35,072 nt of DNA from Pirellulales bacterium (GTDB lineage Bacteria; Planctomycetota; Planctomycetia; Pirellulales; Thermoguttaceae), in the NCBI GenBank assembly GCA_016931995.1, contig JAFGDS010000127.1:1-35072 (forward strand), in the 5' to 3' direction. The first letter of the stretch is position 1; every line of letters starts with the position of its first letter. A program made the translations under genes and the position numbers. Below are positions 1 through 35,072 of the stretch, piece after piece. The notes beneath the pieces are model-generated. The model was given only the letters and a program-made list of their open reading frames with translations. It searched no databases and was not told where the DNA came from.

Positions 1-88
1 GGGGATTGGGGATTGGGGATTGGGGATTGGGGATTGGATCTGACGGCAACGCCCAAATGCTAATCCCTAATCCCTAATCCCCAATCCC
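1..88. repeat. GGGGATT heptamer array with facing inverted array
   Basis: Five consecutive GGGGATT units fill positions 1-35. After about 25 unrelated bases, the complementary units (AATCCCT/AATCCCC) run from about 61 to 88, so the two arrays face each other and could pair as an imperfect hairpin. The G-runs could also form a G-quadruplex on one strand (inference). Similar AATCCC-rich sequence recurs at 30712-30740. The element lies just upstream of the MoxR gene and is cut by the window edge, so its full size is unknown. Confidence 0.8.
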
Positions 89-139
89 TCTCCATGCCAA
101 CACCATTTAATTATCACACCATACCAGCAGGATCGACCG

Positions 140-1144
<1,005 letters not shown>

Positions 1145-1172
1145 GACGCGGTTTCGTTGAAGATGGGTAGAA

Positions 1173-1199
1173 CTCGCGCGGAGACGCGGAGGCGCAGAG
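1173..1199 (+). repeat. 27-bp GxxExxR-associated repeat, copy A
   Basis: A 27-bp sequence starting CTCGCGCGGAGACGC and ending GCGCAGAG. It matches copy C at 2265-2291 at 24 of 27 positions and is inverted relative to copies B (1807-1833) and D (2300-2326). It lies just after the MoxR stop and before an unrecognised ORF. Its role is unknown; the arrangement resembles a terminal inverted repeat of a cassette. Confidence 0.7.
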
Positions 1200-1264
1200 G
1201 GAGTAGAGAAGAGGGACTCAGTTACGGACCCGTTCTCGTGAAGACTCATTCAAGGGGAACTGGC

Positions 1265-1705
1265 ATGGACCTTCGATCAGCCATCGGAGCGTTTGGGGTG
1301 TTGCTCGTGGTAGGCGCCTTCGCACTCTCGGCCGATCCGCGTGATGCTCTGGCAGCCCGTGAAAGGGTCCCGGATGACGTCGAGCGCGCAATGCTACTCG
1401 AGGGATGGCTCAGCCAACAGCGTTTTGAACTTTTTCGATATCCTCCCGTGATTGAGTTGTCGCCAGGAGTCAAATCCTGGCTGCAGAACGTAGATGATGT
1501 TCCGCCCACTCAACTCGGGAAAGCGTTGTCCGAACGTCCAGACCGGCCTCTTTCGGCCAATGGACAGGCGTCCTCGTGCCATCGAGATGTTGGACGGTCC
1601 ACACGCTCCGGCGCTCGCCGCCAAATCTTGTGTCGCCCAAACAAGCAACGCCGCGCGGGTGCCTGTGGACGCCACAAGTGCCTTATCGGGGGCAATGGTC
1701 GCTAG
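1265..1705 (+). CDS. Unrecognised ORF with signal peptide, possibly frameshifted
   Basis: I do not recognise this 146-residue ORF. The ATG at 1265 is preceded by a good ribosome site (AAGGGGA, about 8 bases upstream). The first 30 residues look like a signal peptide or membrane anchor, with a hydrophobic run GAFGVLLVVGAFALSA. Residues to about 96 have a plausible protein composition. Beyond that the sequence turns rich in Arg, Ser and Cys and low in hydrophobic residues, and alternative frames stay open to about 1850, which suggests a frameshift or decayed 3' part. Base composition is less GC-rich than the neighbours. It lies between inverted repeat copies A and B, so it may be part of an inserted cassette. 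It could also be non-coding. Confidence 0.4.
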   Translation: MDLRSAIGAFGVLLVVGAFALSADPRDALAARERVPDDVERAMLLEGWLSQQRFELFRYPPVIELSPGVKSWLQNVDDVPPTQLGKALSERPDRPLSANGQASSCHRDVGRSTRSGARRQILCRPNKQRRAGACGRHKCLIGGNGR

Positions 1706-1806
1706 CTTCCAAGACGACGTCCCTCACTCTCCTTGTCGAAGGAATGATCGGCCAGAGCGGTTCGCAAATGGCCCCGATGCCGCAAAACACCCAACTATCC
1801 TTCTCC

Positions 1807-1833
1807 CTCTGCGTCTTGGCGTCTCTGCGCGAG
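1807..1833 (-). repeat. 27-bp GxxExxR-associated repeat, copy B
   Basis: Reads CTCTGCGTCTTGGCG and continues to GCGCGAG on the plus strand. It matches copy D (2300-2326) at 26 of 27 positions and is inverted relative to copies A and C. It ends 28 bases before the start codon of the GxxExxR gene, so that gene's ribosome-binding region lies immediately after the repeat. Confidence 0.75.
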
Positions 1834-1861
1834 CCCTCCTCCAAAAAATGAGAGTCATGCC

Positions 1862-2245
1862 ATGACGGAGAACGAGATCGGCACGATTTGCGTTGACACG
1901 GCGATCGCCGTGCATCGGGAGTTGGGGCCCGGGCTGCTCGAATCGGTGTACGAAATCGTCATGGCCCACGAACTGTCCCAGCGGGGGTTGCCGACCGAGC
2001 GGCAGGCCCCCGTTCCCATCTCCTACAAGGGGATCACGTTCGACGAAGCCTTCCGCGCCGACCTCCGCGTGGCGGACAAGGTGCTCATCGAACTGAAATC
2101 CGTCGAGCACCTCACCAAGGCGCATCGAAAGCAGATCCAAACCTATCTGCGTCTGACGGGCTTGAAGCTCGGATACCTCTTCAACTTCGGCGAGGCGCTG
2201 ATGAAAGACGGCATCGTCCGGGCCGTCAATCGGCTGGAGGAATAG
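1862..2245 (+). CDS. GxxExxR protein (PD-(D/E)XK-like), copy 1
   Basis: This 127-residue protein belongs to the GxxExxR family (PDDEXK_3 clan), small proteins with a predicted endonuclease fold and no settled biological role. Visible hallmarks are GPGLLESVYE (residues 22-31), the conserved RADL (Asp67), the IELK segment (Glu77, Lys79) that supplies the nuclease-like D...ExK signature, a Gln in QIQTYL (91-96) and the C-terminal KDGIVR. Length is typical. The ATG at 1862 matches family N-termini. The gene sits between inverted 27-bp repeats: copy B is 28 bases upstream and the C-D hairpin 19 bases downstream. A second family member at 20994-21371 is only about half identical by eye and has its own flanking repeats, so this is not a local duplication. 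Confidence 0.9.
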   Translation: MTENEIGTICVDTAIAVHRELGPGLLESVYEIVMAHELSQRGLPTERQAPVPISYKGITFDEAFRADLRVADKVLIELKSVEHLTKAHRKQIQTYLRLTGLKLGYLFNFGEALMKDGIVRAVNRLEE

Positions 2246-2264
2246 TCGGTTTCCGCACAATAAA

Positions 2265-2336
2265 CTCGCGCGGAGACGCCAAGACGCAGAGAATAGCTCC
2301 TCTGCGTCTTGGCGTCTCCGCGCGAGATTCTTTTTT
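2265..2336 (+). terminator. Perfect 27-bp inverted repeat (copies C and D) with T-run
   Basis: Copies C (2265-2291) and D (2300-2326) form a perfect 27-bp inverted repeat around an 8-base loop, followed by a T-rich tract (TTCTTTTTT, 2328-2336). On the plus strand this has the form of an intrinsic terminator for the GxxExxR gene 19 bases upstream, although the stem is far longer than usual. It is the same repeat as copies A and B, so it probably spread as a repeat and serves termination secondarily (inference). Confidence 0.75.
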
Positions 2337-2414
2337 GTGGGGGGCACCGCGGACCCACGCAAACCCGCCCGCTGTCGCATCCGCGTGTATCTGCGGTTTC
2401 TTCCCGGATCTCCC

Positions 2415-3428
2415 CTACGCCCTCGCCATCACCTCGCGGACGATCAAGAGAACCAGCGGCACGACGAACGTCGCGGCCAGGAAAAAGCCGTAGACGAACA
2501 ACAGAACGATCGTCTGGCCCACGTCGGGTGGTCGCGCCTGGAGCTTGTCCCAGACGGACGACACGAGCCGGGCGACGACGTTGGGCTGTTTCTGTTGCGG
2601 AAACTCGCGGCAAACGCCAGCGGCCGTCTCGGCCAGGAGCAGGTCGGGCATTTCGTCGGCCTCGCCCGCGGCCGCGCCCGCCCAACGCGGCCGCAGCGCG
2701 GCGGCGATCTTGCTCGTCTTCCACGTGGCTTGACAACCCACCAGGACGAATCCTCCCAAGAGGCCCAGCACCCACGCCTTCAGCAGAATGGCGATGGCCA
2801 CGAGCGCGAGTCCCGCCAGGCCCTGCACGATGGTCTCGAGATAGCGATTGCGCGAGAAGAGCGTCACTTGAAGGAATCGTCCTCCGTCCAGCGGGAACAC
2901 GGGCAGCAGGTTGAACCCGTTGATAATCACCAAGAGCGAGGCCGGCGTCCGGTAGATCGGATCGTCCGTGGCCACCCAGACGGCCAGCAGGGCCAAGCCA
3001 AAAACCAACCCTGGGACGGGTCCCATCAGCACAACGATCGCTTCTTTGTACCCTTCCACGCCCGTCTTTTTGCCCGAAACCGCCGCGCCAAACAGCGGGA
3101 TGAAAAACATCCGCACGTTGTGGTACTCGAACACCCGCATCGCCAGATAGTGGCCCAACTCGTGGAGGAACAGAACGCCCACCAGCAGCACGAGGTCCAC
3201 CACGGGCTGGTTAAAAAGGCCCAGCGCGACGAAGACGGCCAACGACGCGACCAGCGTCACCACGGCCTGCGTCCAACTGGTCTTCTTGTTTCGCAGTGCG
3301 GTCAATTCCGCGCGGATCGCGTCGATGGGCCGCCGGAGGGCCTCGGCGGCGACCGGCTCCTCCGCCGCCTCGCCGGCGATCGGGGCCTCGCGAGGTTCTT
3401 CGTCAAAAGACTCAGGAGCGTAAGACAT
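2415..3428 (-). CDS. Site-2 protease family (M50) membrane metalloprotease
   Basis: This 337-residue protein is an intramembrane zinc metalloprotease of the site-2 protease/M50 family, which cleaves membrane-embedded segments of regulatory proteins. The zinc motif HELGH is at residues 89-93 and the second family motif NLLPVFPLDGG at 173-183. About 40 charged cytoplasmic residues precede the first hydrophobic segment (about 55-72), several helices follow, and the C-terminus ends in another helix (about 310-330). The ATG at 3428 is preferred over the upstream in-frame TTG at 3449 because GGAGAAGG lies seven bases ahead of it. There is no PDZ domain, unlike RseP. It is divergently arranged with the serine hydrolase gene. 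The substrate is unknown. Confidence 0.92.
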   Translation of the reverse strand: MSYAPESFDEEPREAPIAGEAAEEPVAAEALRRPIDAIRAELTALRNKKTSWTQAVVTLVASLAVFVALGLFNQPVVDLVLLVGVLFLHELGHYLAMRVFEYHNVRMFFIPLFGAAVSGKKTGVEGYKEAIVVLMGPVPGLVFGLALLAVWVATDDPIYRTPASLLVIINGFNLLPVFPLDGGRFLQVTLFSRNRYLETIVQGLAGLALVAIAILLKAWVLGLLGGFVLVGCQATWKTSKIAAALRPRWAGAAAGEADEMPDLLLAETAAGVCREFPQQKQPNVVARLVSSVWDKLQARPPDVGQTIVLLFVYGFFLAATFVVPLVLLIVREVMARA

Positions 3429-3645
3429 CCGGCCTTCTCCCGCAGACAAGTTGCGTCAAGAGACTTCTTTACCAAGCGGGGGCCATTCTACCCCTACTCC
3501 GCAGGCGCGGCAAGCGGACGGCGTCGTACACCGCCCGCGCCGGGGCGCGGCGGCCCCTGCGTTTCCACCGTCCCGTCGCACGCGCCGGCGGTTCTGGTGT
3601 AAGATGAGAACATCCCACCCAATCTCCCTCCGCCCTGAGGTAGCC

Positions 3646-4896
3646 ATGCGAGTCTTTTTCCTCCCGCGCGCCGCGCTCTTGCTGGTCCTGGCCGCGACGC
3701 CCCTCGTCGCCGACGAAACGCGCCCCGATCCGCCCGTCACCGGCCAACCCGTGCCGGAGCTGGCCGTGTTCGATCGGGTGATCCCCGAGCTGATGAAGGA
3801 TTGGGGCATCCCGGGCGGAGCGGTCGGCGTGGCGAAGGACGGCCGGCTGGTGTTCGCCCGGGGCTATGGCTTGGCCGACGTCGAGGCCGGCGAGCCGGTC
3901 CAGCCCGACGCCCTGTTCCGCATCGCCAGCATCTCGAAGCCGATCACGGCCGCCGTCGTGCTCAAGCTCGTCGAACAGGGCAAGATGGCCCTGGACGATC
4001 CGGTGATGAAGTGGCTCGACGCGTATCATCCCCTGCCCGGCCAAAACGTCGATCCGCGGATGGAGAAGGTCACGATCGAACAGCTTCTGACGCACACGGG
4101 CGGGTTCGACCGCGGCAAGTCGTTCGACCCGATGACCGGCGGCCGGCCGCTGGTCGAGGCGATCGGCCCAACCGCGAACCAAAGAGCCATCATCGAATTC
4201 ATGCTCGGCCGTCCGCTCGATTTCGATCCCGGCGAGCGGTACGCCTATTCGAACTACGGCTACTGTCTTTTGGGCCGGGCCATCGAACAGGCGACCGGCC
4301 AGCCCTACGACGCGGCCGCGCGGTCGCTCGTGCTCGCTCCGGCGGGCGCGCGGCGGATGCGCCTGGCCGGGACGCGCCTGGCCGACCGCGCGGCGGGCGA
4401 GGTCCGCTACTACCCCTTTGAAGGCCAGCGGCCGGTCCGGTCGATCTTCGCCGACGACAAGGAGCCCGTGCCCGCGCCCTATGGCGAGTGCTTCATCGAC
4501 GCGATGGACGCGCACGGCGGGTGGATCGCCTCGACGGTGGATCTGTTGCGTTTCACCACGGCCCTGGACGGCGCGCGCAAGCCCGCGATCCTTAAGCCCG
4601 AGACCGTGCGCCGGATCGAGACCCATCGGGTAAAGCGGCCGGGCGGCACGTCCTATGGGCTGGGCTGGGCGATTGCGTCGGCGAAGGGAGGCGAATCCTG
4701 GTCGCACAACGGCTCCCTGCCCGGCACGGCGACGATGCTCCTGCGCAATCCCGACGGCGTGACCGCCACCGTGCTATTCAATGCCCGGCCCAAGGACGAC
4801 GGCGAGTTTTTCCCCAAACTCGAGACCGCCGTCCGCAAGGCCCTCGCCGGCGTGAAGGCGTGGCCCGAGCGAGACCTGTTCCCCGAGTTCGACTAA
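3646..4896 (+). CDS. Serine hydrolase, beta-lactamase class C-like
   Basis: The 416-residue product is a secreted or periplasmic serine hydrolase of the beta-lactamase/penicillin-binding-protein-like (PF00144) family. A signal peptide (about 1-22) is visible. The three active-site elements are present: SISK (Ser95, Lys98), YSN (201-203) and HNG (354-356). The family includes class C beta-lactamases, DD-peptidases and esterases. The last element being HNG rather than KTG argues for an esterase or peptidase and against a dedicated beta-lactamase, but this cannot be settled by reading. The ATG at 3646 follows TGAGGT and starts the signal peptide; the open frame continues upstream to 3451 without a credible start. 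The gene stands alone, divergent from the site-2 protease gene. Confidence 0.93.
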   Translation: MRVFFLPRAALLLVLAATPLVADETRPDPPVTGQPVPELAVFDRVIPELMKDWGIPGGAVGVAKDGRLVFARGYGLADVEAGEPVQPDALFRIASISKPITAAVVLKLVEQGKMALDDPVMKWLDAYHPLPGQNVDPRMEKVTIEQLLTHTGGFDRGKSFDPMTGGRPLVEAIGPTANQRAIIEFMLGRPLDFDPGERYAYSNYGYCLLGRAIEQATGQPYDAAARSLVLAPAGARRMRLAGTRLADRAAGEVRYYPFEGQRPVRSIFADDKEPVPAPYGECFIDAMDAHGGWIASTVDLLRFTTALDGARKPAILKPETVRRIETHRVKRPGGTSYGLGWAIASAKGGESWSHNGSLPGTATMLLRNPDGVTATVLFNARPKDDGEFFPKLETAVRKALAGVKAWPERDLFPEFD

Positions 4897-20953: not shown

Positions 20954-20982
20954 ACCACCACGGAGTCACGGAGACACGGAGA
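20954..20982 (+). repeat. Flanking repeat of GxxExxR copy 2, left
   Basis: The sequence CCACGGAGTCACGGAGACAC with flanks pairs, imperfectly and inverted, with 21464-21489. It shares the purine-rich GGAGAC pattern of the 27-bp repeats around GxxExxR copy 1. It begins 37 bases beyond the start codon of the membrane-anchored gene. Confidence 0.65.
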
Positions 20983-20993
20983 AACCAATCGCG

Positions 20994-21371
20994 TCATAGA
21001 ATTCTCCGAACAATGCCATCCTTGAGCACCGGCACTTTGAAATTCATCAAGAGGCCGATCGATTTGCCACTCAGCTTGAGATAGGTCATCAACTGCGCCT
21101 CGTGAACCGGCAGGATTGTTTCGACGCACTTAAGTTCAACGATTACGCGGTCATCCACGACCAGATCCATGCGATAGCCGCAATCCAAATCCACTCCTTT
21201 GTAATGGACGGGAAGCGCCACCTGACGTTCAAAAGGATGCCTGCGAAGACTCAATTCTCGGCAAAGGCATTCCTCATATGCCGACTCGAGCAAACCCGGT
21301 CCCAACGCCCTGTGAACCTCGATGGCCCCGCCGATTATCGACGCCGTCAATCCCTCATGTTCCAGCTTCAT
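20994..21371 (-). CDS. GxxExxR protein (PD-(D/E)XK-like), copy 2
   Basis: This 125-residue member of the GxxExxR family shows [11 protein letters not shown] (residues 24-34), Asp69 in MDLVVDD, IVELK (Glu79, Lys81), Gln93 and the C-terminal LKDGIVRR. These give the same D...ExK nuclease-like set as copy 1. The two copies are roughly half identical by eye. ATG 21371 is used because similarity starts there; the frame stays open upstream to 21524 but that part is low-complexity and derives from repeat and pyrimidine-rich sequence. The gene lies between inverted GGAGAC-type repeats at 20954-20982 and 21464-21489, and the cassette ends nine bases before the aroC stop codon. Confidence 0.9.
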
Positions 21372-21463
21372 CAAACCATCACTCCCGCAGTCCCGCCCGG
21401 TACTTCTCCATTCTCTCTTTTGCCTTCTTTCTTCCTGTGCCCCTGAACTCTCCTTCTTTTCCG

Positions 21464-21489
21464 TCTCCGTGTCTTCGCGCCTCCGTGGT
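21464..21489 (-). repeat. Flanking repeat of GxxExxR copy 2, right
   Basis: Reads TCTCCGTGTCTTCGCGCCTC and ends CGTGGT; its complement matches 20954-20982 with a few differences in the middle. A pyrimidine-rich tract (about 21410-21463) lies on its inner side. The aroC stop codon (21499-21501) is nine bases away. Confidence 0.65.
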
Positions 21490-21498
21490 TTCTTATGA

Positions 21499-22638
21499 CT
21501 ACATTTCTCTCGCCATCCGTTCAAACAGCTCCCGCCGGGCGAGAATTTCTTGAAGGCTGTCGCCGCCGAATTTGTCGACCACCGCCCGGGCGATCTCGAA
21601 CGCGACCACGTTCTCGATCACCACGCTGGCCGCCGGCACGGCGCAGACGTCGCTGCGTTCGTAGGAGGCGGATTCTGGCCGGCGGGTTTTCAGGTTGACC
21701 GATTCCAACGGCGAGGCCAGCGTCGAGATCGGCTTTTTCGCCGCGCGAATGACAATGGGTTGGGAGTTCGTCATGCCGGCCTCGATCCCGCCGGCGTTGT
21801 TCGTGGGCCGCGCGAAGCCGAGTGTTGGGCCGCCGGCCGCCGCCGGATCGAAGCGAATGGGGTCGTGCACCTGGGAGCCCAGCCGCCGCGCCGCCTTGAA
21901 TCCCAGCCCAATCTCGACCCCCTTGATCGCCTGCACCGCCATGACCGCCTGGGCGAGCCGGCCGTCGAGTTTCTGGTCCCACTGCGCGTGGGTGCCCAAT
22001 CCAAAGGGCACGCCCTCGACGCGAACCTCGATCACGCCGCCGAGCGTGTCGCCCTGGTCGCGGCATTGGTCCACCAGGGCGATGGCTTCGGCGTCCTGGT
22101 CCGGATTGAGCGAGTAGATCTCGCTGGCGTCGCGCAAGGCGCGGTGCTCGGCCAGCGTGCCCGGCTTGGCCGCGATCTCCAACGGCCCCAGGGCCACCAC
22201 GTAGCCCAGCGCCTCGATGCCCAACGGCGCAAGCAATTGTCGGGCCAAGGCGCCGGCGGCCACGCGGACGGCCGTCTCCCGCGCGCTGGCCCGTTCCAAA
22301 ATCGCCCGAACCGAACTGAGATGCTTCCGCGACCCGCTCAAGTCGCCGTGGCCCGGGCGGGGGCGGTCGAGGTCGTCCATCTCGTCGATCTTGAAGTCCT
22401 TGTTGGGCACGAGCAGGGCGATGGGGCTTCCCAGCGATTGCCCCCGCCACACGCCGCCGAGCAATTCGACGTGGTCGTCCTCGATGAGCTGGCGTCCCCC
22501 GCGCCCGTACCCACCTTGGCGCCGGACCAGCTCCGCGTTGATCTGTTCCACGTCGATCTCGACGCCGGCGGGAAACCCGTCCACCAGCGCGATCAATCCT
22601 CGTCCGTGCGACTCCCCGGCGGTCCAGTATCGTAACAT
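21499..22638 (-). CDS. aroC: Chorismate synthase
   Basis: This 379-residue enzyme removes phosphate from 5-enolpyruvylshikimate 3-phosphate to give chorismate, the branch point for aromatic amino acids and other aromatics, using reduced FMN. Signatures are GESHGRGL with His11, [15 protein letters not shown] (92-106), ERASARETA (115-123) and [12 protein letters not shown]. The ATG at 22638 has GAGGTGA at an ideal distance and matches the conserved N-terminus [13 protein letters not shown] GxxExxR cassette follows within nine bases of its stop, and a repeat cluster lies upstream. No other aro gene is nearby. Confidence 0.97.
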
Positions 22639-33221: not shown

Positions 33222-34706
33222 ATGAACGAATTTTCTCCCGCCAGCGATCAAAACGATCCGATGGCCAATGCGGTTGGACTGCCGCGGCCGGTCAGACACG
33301 TGGCCGTCGTCGGCGCGGGGATCGCGGGCTTGGCCGCGGCGCACCGGGTGACGCAGCTCGACCCGGCCTGCGAGCTGGTCGTCTTCGAGGCGGGCGATCG
33401 CGCGGGTGGCGTGTTGTGGACGGTGCACGAGGCCGGATTCCAGGTCGAGCAGAGCGCCGACAATTTCATCACCACGGTGCCCTACGGCTTGGAACTCTGC
33501 CGGAGCCTGGGGCTGGGCGACCGGCTCGTCCAGACCAACCCGGCCTGCCGGCAGACGTACGTCGTCCATCGTGGGCGGCTCCACAAGCTGCCCGACGGAT
33601 TCCTCATGATGGCTCCCACGCGGCTGTGGCCGCTGGCGCTCACGCCGCTGTTGAGCCCCTTGGGCAAGCTCCGCGCCGGCCTGGAATATTTCATCCCACC
33701 GCGGTTGGACGACGCGGACGAGAGCATGGCGGCGTTCGTGCGGCGGCGGCTGGGCCGCGAGGCGTTCGACCGGCTGGTCGAGCCGCTGGTCAGTGCCGTC
33801 TACGCCGCCGATCTGGAGCGGCTTTCGGTCGATGCGACCCTCTCCCGCTTCCGCGACATGGAACGCCAGCACGGCAGCCTGATCCGCGCGCTAAGGCGCG
33901 AGATGGCCGCGCGTCGCAAGGCGCGGCGGGAAGCGGAAACGCAAAGCGGCGCGCGATACAGCCTGTTCGTCACGCTGCGGGACGGCCTGTCGAGCCTGGT
34001 CGAGGCCCTGGTTGCCCGGCTGCCGCGGGGGGCGCTGCGGCTGGGCTCTCCCGTCGAGCGTCTGGCCCCGACGCCCGACGGCCGATGGGACGTGTGGTCG
34101 CGAGGGCGTTCGGAGCGGTTCGACGCGGTGGTGATGGCCGCCCCGGCGCACGTGGCCGGGCCGCTGTTGACGCCGGTCGATCGGGAGTTAGGCGCGGGGC
34201 TTGGCCAGATCGAGCACTCGGGCACGGCGATCGTGTCGTTGGGATTCCGCACGGACCAGATCGGCCACCCTTTGCGCGGCATGGGCGCCGTGGTGCCCGC
34301 CGCCGAGCGGAGCCCCATCCTGGCCGTCAGCTTTAGCAGCCGGAAGTACGTCCACCGAGCCCCGGAGGGCCACGACATCTTTCGCGTGTTCGTCGGCGGC
34401 GCCCGGGCGCCCGAGATGGCCGAGCTCGACGACTCGCGGCTCGTGCCGCTGGTGCTCGCCGAATTGCGACGGCTTCTGCGAATCCAGGGCGAGCCGGTGT
34501 ACGCGGCGGCGGCCCATTGGCCGCGGACGATGCCGCAGTACCACGTGGGCCATCGGGCGCGGGTGGAGGAGATCGAGCGGCGCGCGGCCCGGCTTTCGGG
34601 CCTTGCCCTGGCCGGCAACGCCTACCGCGGCGTCGGCCTGCCCGACTGCATCCACACGGGCCAACAGGCGGCCGCGCGGGTGCTGGGCGCCACTGGCTCC
34701 GCCTGA
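33222..34706 (+). CDS. hemY: Oxygen-dependent protoporphyrinogen oxidase
   Basis: This 494-residue FAD enzyme oxidises protoporphyrinogen IX to protoporphyrin IX in haem synthesis (the type also listed as hemG). The dinucleotide-binding start VAVVGAGIAGLAAAHR (27-42), Glu56 in VVFEAGDRAGG, the DNFITTVPYG segment, LVSAVYAADLERLS and the C-terminal FAD segment LALAGNAYRGVGLPDCIHTG are typical. ATG 33222 has no ribosome site because a palindrome lies ahead of it; an in-frame ATG at 33261 is an alternative. The last codons (ATGSA) come from half a CACTGGC repeat, so the C-terminus has probably been altered by a repeat insertion. Confidence 0.94.
   Translation: MNEFSPASDQNDPMANAVGLPRPVRHVAVVGAGIAGLAAAHRVTQLDPACELVVFEAGDRAGGVLWTVHEAGFQVEQSADNFITTVPYGLELCRSLGLGDRLVQTNPACRQTYVVHRGRLHKLPDGFLMMAPTRLWPLALTPLLSPLGKLRAGLEYFIPPRLDDADESMAAFVRRRLGREAFDRLVEPLVSAVYAADLERLSVDATLSRFRDMERQHGSLIRALRREMAARRKARREAETQSGARYSLFVTLRDGLSSLVEALVARLPRGALRLGSPVERLAPTPDGRWDVWSRGRSERFDAVVMAAPAHVAGPLLTPVDRELGAGLGQIEHSGTAIVSLGFRTDQIGHPLRGMGAVVPAAERSPILAVSFSSRKYVHRAPEGHDIFRVFVGGARAPEMAELDDSRLVPLVLAELRRLLRIQGEPVYAAAAHWPRTMPQYHVGHRARVEEIERRAARLSGLALAGNAYRGVGLPDCIHTGQQAAARVLGATGSA
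34689..34703 (+). repeat. Half CACTGGC palindrome at the end of hemY
   Basis: GCCACTGGCTCCGCC (34689-34703) is the left part of the palindrome family. The right part is missing and is replaced by TGA and the 281-bp element that follows. It encodes the final residues of the haem enzyme. Confidence 0.7.
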
Positions 34707-34987
34707 GAACGTGTTTGGAAATACGTTTTTTCTCTAGCCCAGGCGTTCACGCCTGGGGATCGAAGGCCAAAATCGGATTGGCTTTTTCCTTTCCGTCCCC
34801 TTCAGGGGGCGGAAGATCGGCGAGGCCAAAACGCGAAAGGACGCCCCTGGAAGGGGCTTTGGGAAAAACACGTTGGGGGGAATCCGTAGTCCCAGGCGTA
34901 AACGCCTGGGCTAGAGAAAACGTCTGGACGCCTCAAAGGACGGTGTCGCCTGCAAACCCCTCGTGATACGCGTTTCAAAACACGTTC
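34707..34987. mobile_element. MITE-like 281-bp element with terminal inverted repeats
   Basis: The ends GAACGTGTTTGGAAA (34707-34721) and TTTCAAAACACGTTC (34973-34987) are inverted repeats matching at 14 of 15 positions. TGA lies on both sides (34704-34706 and 34988-34990), consistent with a three-base target duplication. Inside is a second inverted pair, each itself a palindrome: CCCAGGCG-TTCA-CGCCTGGG at 34738-34757 and the TAAA-centred copy at 34891-34910, with CTCTAG on their outer sides. Between them are CCCCTTCAGGGG-type and GCCCCTGGAAGGGGC hairpins. No transposase ORF fits. A further copy of the end (GAACGTGTTTGGAAA, 34991-35005) starts straight after, so a second element may continue beyond the window. 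Confidence 0.6.
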
Positions 34988-35072
34988 TGAGAACGTGTTT
35001 GGAAAGTCGGATTTCCCATCCGGCGGCCAGTTCGGCTGGCTTGAGATGGCGTAACATGCGATGAATCATGCA
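34911..35072 (-). CDS. Possible partial ORF at window edge
   Basis: A minus-strand frame without stop enters from the window edge and ends at TAG (34911-34913), giving a C-terminal stretch that begins MIHRMLRHLKPAELAAGW and ends FEASRRFL. It resembles ordinary protein in its first half, but the second half reads through the terminal inverted repeats. It could be a gene whose 3' end was replaced by the element or a transposase C-terminus; I do not recognise it. Confidence 0.2.
   Translation of the reverse strand, partial: CMIHRMLRHLKPAELAAGWEIRLSKHVLRTCFETRITRGLQATPSFEASRRFL

Follow-up and report, generated by a model that had tools for sequence, protein, structure and literature searches.

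GxxExxY genes, which encode a predicted PD-(D/E)XK nuclease of about 125 residues, are as a rule bracketed by inverted repeats built from short-period units, and gene and repeats together form discrete units that move, with the repeats at or near the unit ends. The analysis started from one such gene on a 35,072-nt stretch of DNA (contig JAFGDS010000127.1, here called the window) from a Pirellulales bacterium (assembly GCA_016931995.1, the source genome), where it lies among four copies of a 27-bp repeat. Judged from sequence comparison, these units are probably mobile elements whose sole gene is their cognate nuclease, accompanied by gene-less derivatives and working like the system of REPINs (hairpin-forming doublets of repetitive extragenic palindromic, REP, sequences) and RAYTs (REP-associated tyrosine transposases), with an unrelated enzyme.

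Inverted Short-Period Repeats at GxxExxY Genes

The GxxExxY family is common and occurs in many phyla: its Pfam profile, PF13366, has 133 matches, spread over 44 of the 101 genomes sampled from the bacterial family of the source genome. Ninety-four family loci were taken, namely 93 of the 103 near-full-length places (of the other ten, nine were not retrieved and one duplicated another place) and the frameshifted gene of source contig C77; 90 of them were scored, four lying too close to contig ends. The score is that of the best local alignment between the upstream 350 nt and the reverse complement of the downstream 350 nt, with a threshold of 14. The median score was 23.25 and the threshold was reached by 80 of the 90 loci, as against 0 of 191 control intervals shifted by 700-1100 nt within the same loci. 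One locus among the 80 (L130) owes its score of 111 to additional, degenerate gene copies in its flanks, and it was dropped from the 110-locus test described below.

The association extends beyond the family. A named-genome collection that covers many phyla supplied 55 loci, of which 45 were scored (ten were partial or at contig ends); 31 of these reached the threshold, compared with 4 of 225 shifted intervals. Among control genes, the threshold was reached by 2 of 29 scored PIN loci (30 loci taken) and by 2 of 15 scored moxR loci (19 taken). Three of seven plasmid records score at least 18: Bacteroides finegoldii (22.5), Bernardetia (18.0) and Gemmatirosa (56.5).

The arms of these repeats are periodic. 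In arms of 18-60 nt from the family loci, the best lag was 8, 9 or 10 in 132 of 140 arms, and periodicity reached p<0.05 in 61 of 70 loci, a typical arm comprising about three units of 8-10 bp. The arms are often single on each side of the gene and several hundred nucleotides apart. The arrangement repeat(+)-gene-repeat(-) was found at 45 of the 80 family loci and the reverse at 11, the remaining 24 being ambiguous or having long or double arms.

Repeat Type Follows the Protein Lineage

The relation between protein and repeat was analysed at 110 loci scoring at least 14 (79 family loci and 31 from the named set). For loci in different genomes, protein identity and repeat similarity are correlated with r=0.68, and none of 2000 permutations was as high, the largest being 0.14 (Mantel test). 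After the removal of syntenic pairs, which share outer flanks, r was 0.67 over 5876 pairs. At 30-40% protein identity, repeat similarity averages 0.25 for pairs within the same genome and 0.22 for pairs from different genomes, and at 40-50% identity the averages are 0.26 and 0.29; repeats within a genome are thus roughly as dissimilar as those of separate genomes. It is the lineage of the protein, not the genome, that the repeat tracks.

Furthermore, the two arms of one locus have a median similarity of 0.71, a level otherwise reached only by loci at 70% protein identity or more, this within-locus value being favoured by the score filter that 80 of the 90 family loci passed. Different loci at 30-50% protein identity have median repeat similarities of 0.21-0.26.

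A separate observation concerns two loci, one on source contig C33 (L010) and one in another genome (L154, G055), which have a common flanking stretch (84% DNA identity), GxxExxY proteins of different lineages (41% identity) and different repeats. One site is here occupied by unlike cassettes.

GxxExxY Cassettes as Mobile Units

Defined ends are visible in a metagenome-assembled genome (MAG; CALGXT..., 'uncultured bacterium isolate R1_Bin_METABAT__307_1') in which three contigs (L105, L109 and L110) end inside the same gene. They are 99.3-100% identical over about 140 nt; the homology begins within one base of GTTGGAAC, at 23 nt outside the 27-bp repeat, and the flanks before it differ. A fourth contig of this MAG (L062) begins at the start codon and shows, on the other side of the gene, the repeat followed by the mirror sequence GTTCCAAC. 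With GTTGGAAC on one side and GTTCCAAC on the other, the outer 8 bp of the element are therefore mirror-image, the right end being represented by one copy only. A second genome with several copies is a Deltaproteobacteria MAG, in which loci L081 and L083 share 91.6% identity over a 617-nt stretch spanning the gene.

Gene-bearing and gene-less copies coexist in a genus of the family (g22). Its cassette follows a conserved stretch in two genomes (G074 and G048), and at the orthologous site two others are cassette-free, with flanks 59 and 80 nt apart and unrelated heptamer repeats between them (G021:C57 30829-30887, an array of AGTTGCG units, and G062:C144 19230-19309, an array of AATTAGT units). 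Because these two sites hold different heptamer arrays, the spot seems to acquire repeats repeatedly. Five gene-less copies (L249, L251, L252, L253 and L255; 309, 310, 312, 309 and 221 bp) share both ends with the gene-bearing copies L140 (821 bp) and L145 (716 bp), and their flanks differ and look A/T-rich; the count excludes two partial copies, L250, which a contig end truncates, and L254, of which only the right part is present. The G074 cassette, but not the G048 copy, contains a 94-bp secondary repeat that is dispersed in the genus (L140 2048-2139; query 1449-1542), and each of four g22 genomes has 62-149 matches to parts of the L140 region. L140 and a further locus, L141, were considered as a recent duplication; their contigs are identical over all 3401 shared bases, which points to a long duplication or an assembly artefact, and L141 was left out.

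Cassettes are also matched between distant genomes. The compact cassette of source contig C46 measures 454 bp between its outer repeat edges and is matched in two other genera of the same family (G006 and G012) and in two other families (G116 and G120), so that, with the source genome, it occurs in five genera, each time in unrelated surroundings. Three of the four matches span from repeat edge to repeat edge within about 11 nt, and the match in G120 is without the right-hand repeat. Outside the cassette, similarity consists only of further repeat copies (G006 with G012), the comparison with G120 covering the left flank only. A candidate empty site in G013, where the upstream gene stands without the cassette, is not claimed, as no DNA match was found past that gene. 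Finally, between two Bipolaricaulota MAGs (L061 and L070) identity is 91.9% over 409 nt, a stretch made up of the gene with roughly 15 nt to either side. Together, these data establish discrete, moving units; that GxxExxY is the mover we infer.

The Window Locus

The first GxxExxY gene of the window (1862..2245, plus strand) encodes 127 amino acids of a PD-(D/E)XK nuclease-like protein with intact motif residues. The four copies of the 27-mer, which starts with CTCGCGC and ends with AGAG, lie where the original prediction had placed them: copy A at 1173..1199 (+), copy B at 1807..1833 (-), 28 nt 5' of the gene, copy C at 2265..2291 (+) and copy D at 2300..2326 (-). Relative to C, they have 3 (A), 1 (B) and 0 (D) mismatches, and the 27-bp repeat found a match in 0 of 100 dinucleotide shuffles of the window. 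Folding of C-D as DNA likewise gave a hairpin at -40.7 kcal/mol (z -12), its 27-bp stem without mismatch and its loop 8 nt long; TTCTTTTTT follows it.

An inverted pair thus stands on each side of the gene, A and B being 607 nt apart. Close homologues (e.g. L060 and L058) are compact: a repeat ends at or adjoining the start codon, and after the gene another follows about 5 nt or less from the stop. Set against these, the window locus reads as a variant with an inverted pair on both gene sides. The same plan, with two tight hairpins, is present on a plasmid of Gemmatirosa kalamazoonensis KBS708 (NZ_CP007129.1), and the two plasmids of this organism contain at least 49 matching places, the cassette itself included.

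The earlier suggestion of a unit of about 1.15 kb reaching from A to D finds no support. Compared with the window, 15 homologous loci share DNA only in the gene and in copies of the repeat, a single 19-nt match at 2378-2396 excepted, and none of the 15 matches 1203-1797. Because the homologues match none of its sequence, the 607-nt A-B interval may be an insertion or unrelated sequence; neither NCBIfam nor Pfam gave a match at E<=1 for its 182-aa open reading frame (ORF). The 19 nt at 2378-2396 (CATCCGCGTGTATCTGCGG) are identical to a stretch of locus L063 and similar to the 10-bp-period repeat of the C33 GxxExxY gene, and are perhaps a remnant of another repeat family.

The neighbours of the cassette are a gene for a moxR-type AAA ATPase (140-1144) and, on the other strand, a gene for an M50-type peptidase (2415-3449). 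Orthologues of moxR were examined in 19 of 60 genomes searched, none of them with a GxxExxY gene within 1.5 kb. Gene order around moxR is not conserved, since the M50 gene is not adjacent to these orthologues either.

The Window Repeat in the Source Genome and Its Relatives

The source genome contains 28 copies of the window repeat at no more than 3 mismatches, four of them in the window, while a reversed-pattern control found none; a degenerate pattern found 43. Among the loci scanned, 32 of 44 copies (up to 7 mismatches) stand in 16 close inverted pairs, C-D included. The motif lies within 1.5 kb of two of the six GxxExxY genes of this genome, the window gene and that of the compact C46 cassette, which has a variant with 5 mismatches. 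The other four have short-period inverted repeats of their own: ACACGGAG (C28:21006), ATTCGCGTCC (C141), GATGAACGCG (C33) and ACACGAAAG (C77). The six genes therefore represent five repeat types, and their loci have inverted-repeat scores of 18.5-29.5. The expectation that repeat and gene go together was borne out in part: the window repeat type serves only two of the genes, and most of its copies have no GxxExxY gene adjacent, whereas each remaining gene is found with its own repeat.

A pattern for the window repeat type was found in 32 of the 101 family genomes, its reversed control in none. PF13366 is present in 26 of the 32 genomes with the pattern versus 18 of the 69 without it (Fisher p 2.6e-7, uncorrected for phylogeny).

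A second cassette of the window (20957-21489) has its own inverted repeat of ACACGGAG units. One repeat (ACCACGGAGTCACGGAGACACGGAGA) lies at 20957..20982 (+), on the 3' side of the second GxxExxY gene (20994..21371, minus strand; domain at 21006-21350), and its inverted partner at 21464..21489 (-); the gene start at 21371 is a reading of the ORF at 20994-21524. Beside this gene, on the same strand, is a gene whose product was read as chorismate synthase. Towards the end of the window, at 34690-35010, GAGAACGTGTTTGGAAA occurs twice in direct orientation, together with palindromic stretches of the form CCCAGGCGT...ACGCCTGGG, a putative further repeat family.

The GxxExxY Protein

The window gene had first been named "GxxExxR", which is wrong: its product matches TIGR04256 with 134.5 bits (cut-off 35; E 2e-39) and PF13366 (PDDEXK_3) with 134.8 bits (cut-off 22; E 2.4e-39), the latter being its sole Pfam match at E<=1, and its motif is G24-E27-Y30. 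These residues, together with D67 and E77-K79, are invariant in 41 aligned sequences, and E27, D67, E/D77 and K79 are kept in 108 of 110 proteins. Q91 and Y95 fit the QxxxY motif of RecB-type nucleases.

The structure model of the protein has a pLDDT (predicted local distance difference test) of 95. Its top fold matches, which are tied, are the Cas4 protein SSO0001 (4ic1; Foldseek E 1.7e-3, Z 9.3 over 103 residues) and the restriction-endonuclease-like 3ijm (Z 8.8); Hjc resolvases follow with Z 5.7-6.9 (1gef, Z 6.9). Only three chains reach Z 8, and the lower matches may merely reflect the common PD-(D/E)XK core. No sequence relatives of note were found in the PDB (best E 0.1). The protein is predicted to be an intact PD-(D/E)XK nuclease with a Cas4/Hjc-like fold, and a junction- or hairpin-cutting nuclease would suit hairpin-forming ends.

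Other origins were considered for the gene. No relatives were found in 50,697 phage records at E 1e-5 and none were confirmed in viral contigs, and a phage origin was rejected on these searches; the PHROG collection gave a weak match to phrog_1706, 'CRISPR/Cas system associated' (E 0.0043). The PADLOC models gave no match, and the gene was not retained as a defence gene. Searches of the Creative Commons-licensed literature in PubMed Central, with subscription papers and preprints outside their reach, returned nothing under TIGR04256, PDDEXK_3, GxxExxR or six repeat strings, and the GxxExxY passage in this literature, to the extent of the excerpt, is not about repeats. As far as these searches reach, GxxExxY appears to be a curated but uncharacterised family.

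Proposed Mechanism and Alternatives

The likeliest reading of these data is that GxxExxY is the mobilising enzyme, which we consider probable, with appreciable room for doubt. The nuclease would bind its own repeats, probably as hairpins, cruciforms or single strands, and by pairing and cutting the element ends would set its own cassette in motion. Acting in trans, it would also move gene-less hairpin copies such as the doublets of the source genome, and host repair or replication would complete the reaction.

Several observations weigh against this reading. Ten of the 90 family loci and 14 of the 45 from other taxa fall below the score threshold. Four of the seven plasmid records (Sphingomonas, Prevotella, Treponema and Fusobacteria) score 12 or less and are not bracketed; the Sphingomonas locus has one upstream repeat, and those of Sphingomonas and Treponema retain repeat-like stretches by eye. 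The minus-plus doublets of the source genome have spacers of 15-21 nt that vary between pairs, and the similarity excess of doublet arms over the arms of other doublets is not significant (p 0.13, 12 doublets). Six genomes have the repeat pattern without PF13366 (G062 with 33 copies, G014 with 13, G036 with 4, G041 and G077 with 2 each and G089 with 1), their listed completeness being 76-93%; because they have the repeat and not the gene, gene-less copies may persist or be moved by other means. The structure model has no PDB match at Foldseek E 0.001. As for the transposase-free mobile cassette of the original prediction, the GxxExxY family does present a gene bounded by inverted repeats, mobile and without a transposase, but the window cassette itself has no clean empty site among the 19 moxR orthologue loci. 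Moreover, physical linkage accounts for part of the repeat-protein correlation, and linkage alone could drive the joint divergence of repeat and protein; it is insufficient, however, to explain arms that are alike within a locus while repeats differ beyond recognition between lineages.

The main alternative is that GxxExxY is cargo, carried for some other benefit between MITE- or REPIN-like ends (MITE, miniature inverted-repeat transposable element) that a Y1/RAYT transposase or another factor moves in trans. This is unlikely, although it would agree with the seven Y1_Tnp places of the source genome, with the excess of gene-less over gene-linked repeat copies and with the resemblance of the doublets to REPINs. 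Six of the seven Y1_Tnp places were scored (500-nt flanks, without a control run), and the inverted repeats there are, by eye, of other, non-periodic kinds. A carrier enzyme encoded elsewhere would not require the repeat to follow the GxxExxY lineage across genomes, and the near-invariance of the catalytic residues also argues against a passenger role.

A further alternative does without a dedicated enzyme: ordinary homologous recombination or gene conversion between repeats already scattered through a genome would spread the cassettes, and GxxExxY would be a selfish or defence gene benefiting from it. Genomes do hold dispersed copies of one repeat, which would allow this, and inspection by eye of 7 + 5 copies revealed no target-site duplication, a result that counts against transposition by GxxExxY as well. 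In the three MAG contigs, on the other hand, shared sequence passes 23 nt beyond the 27-bp repeat up to the common GTTGGAAC end, so this boundary looks like an element end and not a joint within the repeat; recombination is accordingly quite improbable as the explanation.

A regulatory role, in which the repeats are sites for a host nucleoid or global regulator (integration host factor, IHF, or HU) and the gene is a bystander or is regulated, draws on the paired tandem octanucleotides of Geobacter metallireducens, which resemble the CACGGAGA repeat of the second window locus in the sites presented there (PMC2700814). Five repeat types among six genes of one genome, repeats that follow the protein across taxa and element ends that coincide with repeats make this very unlikely. 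That the hairpins are intrinsic terminators or mRNA-stability elements, placed on two sides only to insulate transcription, is scarcely credible: the strong C-D hairpin and the TTCTTTTTT after it would fit, but not the single arms several hundred nucleotides apart, the movement of units with defined ends or the absence of any Rfam family from window positions 1-4000.

A Parallel System and Wider Meaning

Genes of PF05635, a four-helix-bundle family named after 23S rRNA intervening sequences, show a parallel arrangement. From 35 loci taken (own-family L043-L048 and L200-L228), three were too short to score, and 28 of the other 32 have an inverted-repeat score of at least 14, versus 8 of 167 controls. 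The arms have a 7-bp period, with a best lag of 7 or 14 in 47 of 56 arms. PF05635 genes are a possible mobiliser of the heptanucleotide repeats known in cyanobacteria and others; the cyanobacterial repeats are called STRR (short tandemly repeated repetitive) sequences. The window itself opens with two heptamer arrays in inverted orientation (1-88, just before moxR), one of GGGGATT and one of CTAATCC units; they form a hairpin and are of the PF05635 type without the gene.

Transposable elements are classed by their enzyme, which may be a DDE enzyme, an HUH enzyme, a tyrosine or serine recombinase or Cas1. An element with a Cas4/Hjc-like nuclease as its sole gene would, if the reading is right, add a class to these. 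We regard the chances as evenly balanced that such a class exists in the full sense, that is, that one nuclease about 125 residues long recognises a three-unit repeat specific to its lineage, moves its cassette and gene-less hairpin derivatives without transposase or recombinase, explains much of the intergenic short-period repeat DNA of Planctomycetes, Verrucomicrobia, Desulfobacterota, Bacteroidota and others, and has its parallel in PF05635 genes for heptanucleotide repeats such as the cyanobacterial ones. The newness of the class depends on the step in which the nuclease does the moving; if GxxExxY were only cargo, the elements would reduce to a variant of MITE-like elements.

If true, this reading would provide a source for intergenic short-period repeats that have been read as regulatory sites, at least in the sections of PMC2700814 at hand, and for repeats that are left without a linked mobile element in the corresponding sections of PMC4692102. 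It would also give the GxxExxY family a testable function, the many natural repeat/protein pairs making recognition directly testable.

Comparison with Known Systems

The IS200/IS605 elements are small, have hairpins at both ends, make no target duplication and encode the Y1 transposase TnpA, often together with TnpB. GxxExxY cassettes resemble them in their small size, in their hairpin ends and, as far as judged by eye, in the lack of target duplication, whereas the window gene matches neither TnpA Y1 nor TnpB in Pfam. Likeness to MITEs lies in the gene-less copies of genus g22, 221-312 bp long, which have both inverted ends in common with gene-bearing copies (five gene-less, two gene-bearing); the difference is that the GxxExxY parent element has no known transposase.

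Cas4 proteins have conserved cysteines that hold an iron-sulphur cluster. The GxxExxY alignment has no cysteine in its invariant or nearly invariant columns, and the window protein belongs to PF13366, with no match to PF01930 or PF12705. The predicted fold may be like that of Cas4 and solo Cas4-like nucleases, as these are presented in part of PMC5704561, SSO0001 being among the best PDB matches. The G. metallireducens sites, in the available portion of their description, are paired tandem octa- or heptanucleotides read as IHF/HU regulatory sites; they are alike in having three tandem units of about 8 bp, opposite-strand pairs, variable distance and many copies, and differ in that this portion describes no linked nuclease gene (PMC2700814).

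The closest parallel in organisation is REPIN/RAYT. In both, short repeats pair as inverted, hairpin-forming doublets scattered between genes, with spacers less conserved than the repeats, and the gene has its cognate repeat on its flanks (PMC3116915, in part). The source genome has 16 such close inverted pairs among 44 copies, one of which (C-D) was folded. REP repeats carry a GTAG or CGTC tag at one end, according to the part of PMC3733652 consulted, and the window 27-mer is without it. RAYT is a Y1 transposase whose phylogeny, in the same partial source (PMC3116915), is largely congruent with that of the species, whereas GxxExxY is a PD-(D/E)XK nuclease, its repeats are short-period trimers, and its gene is multi-copy and alike in unrelated taxa.
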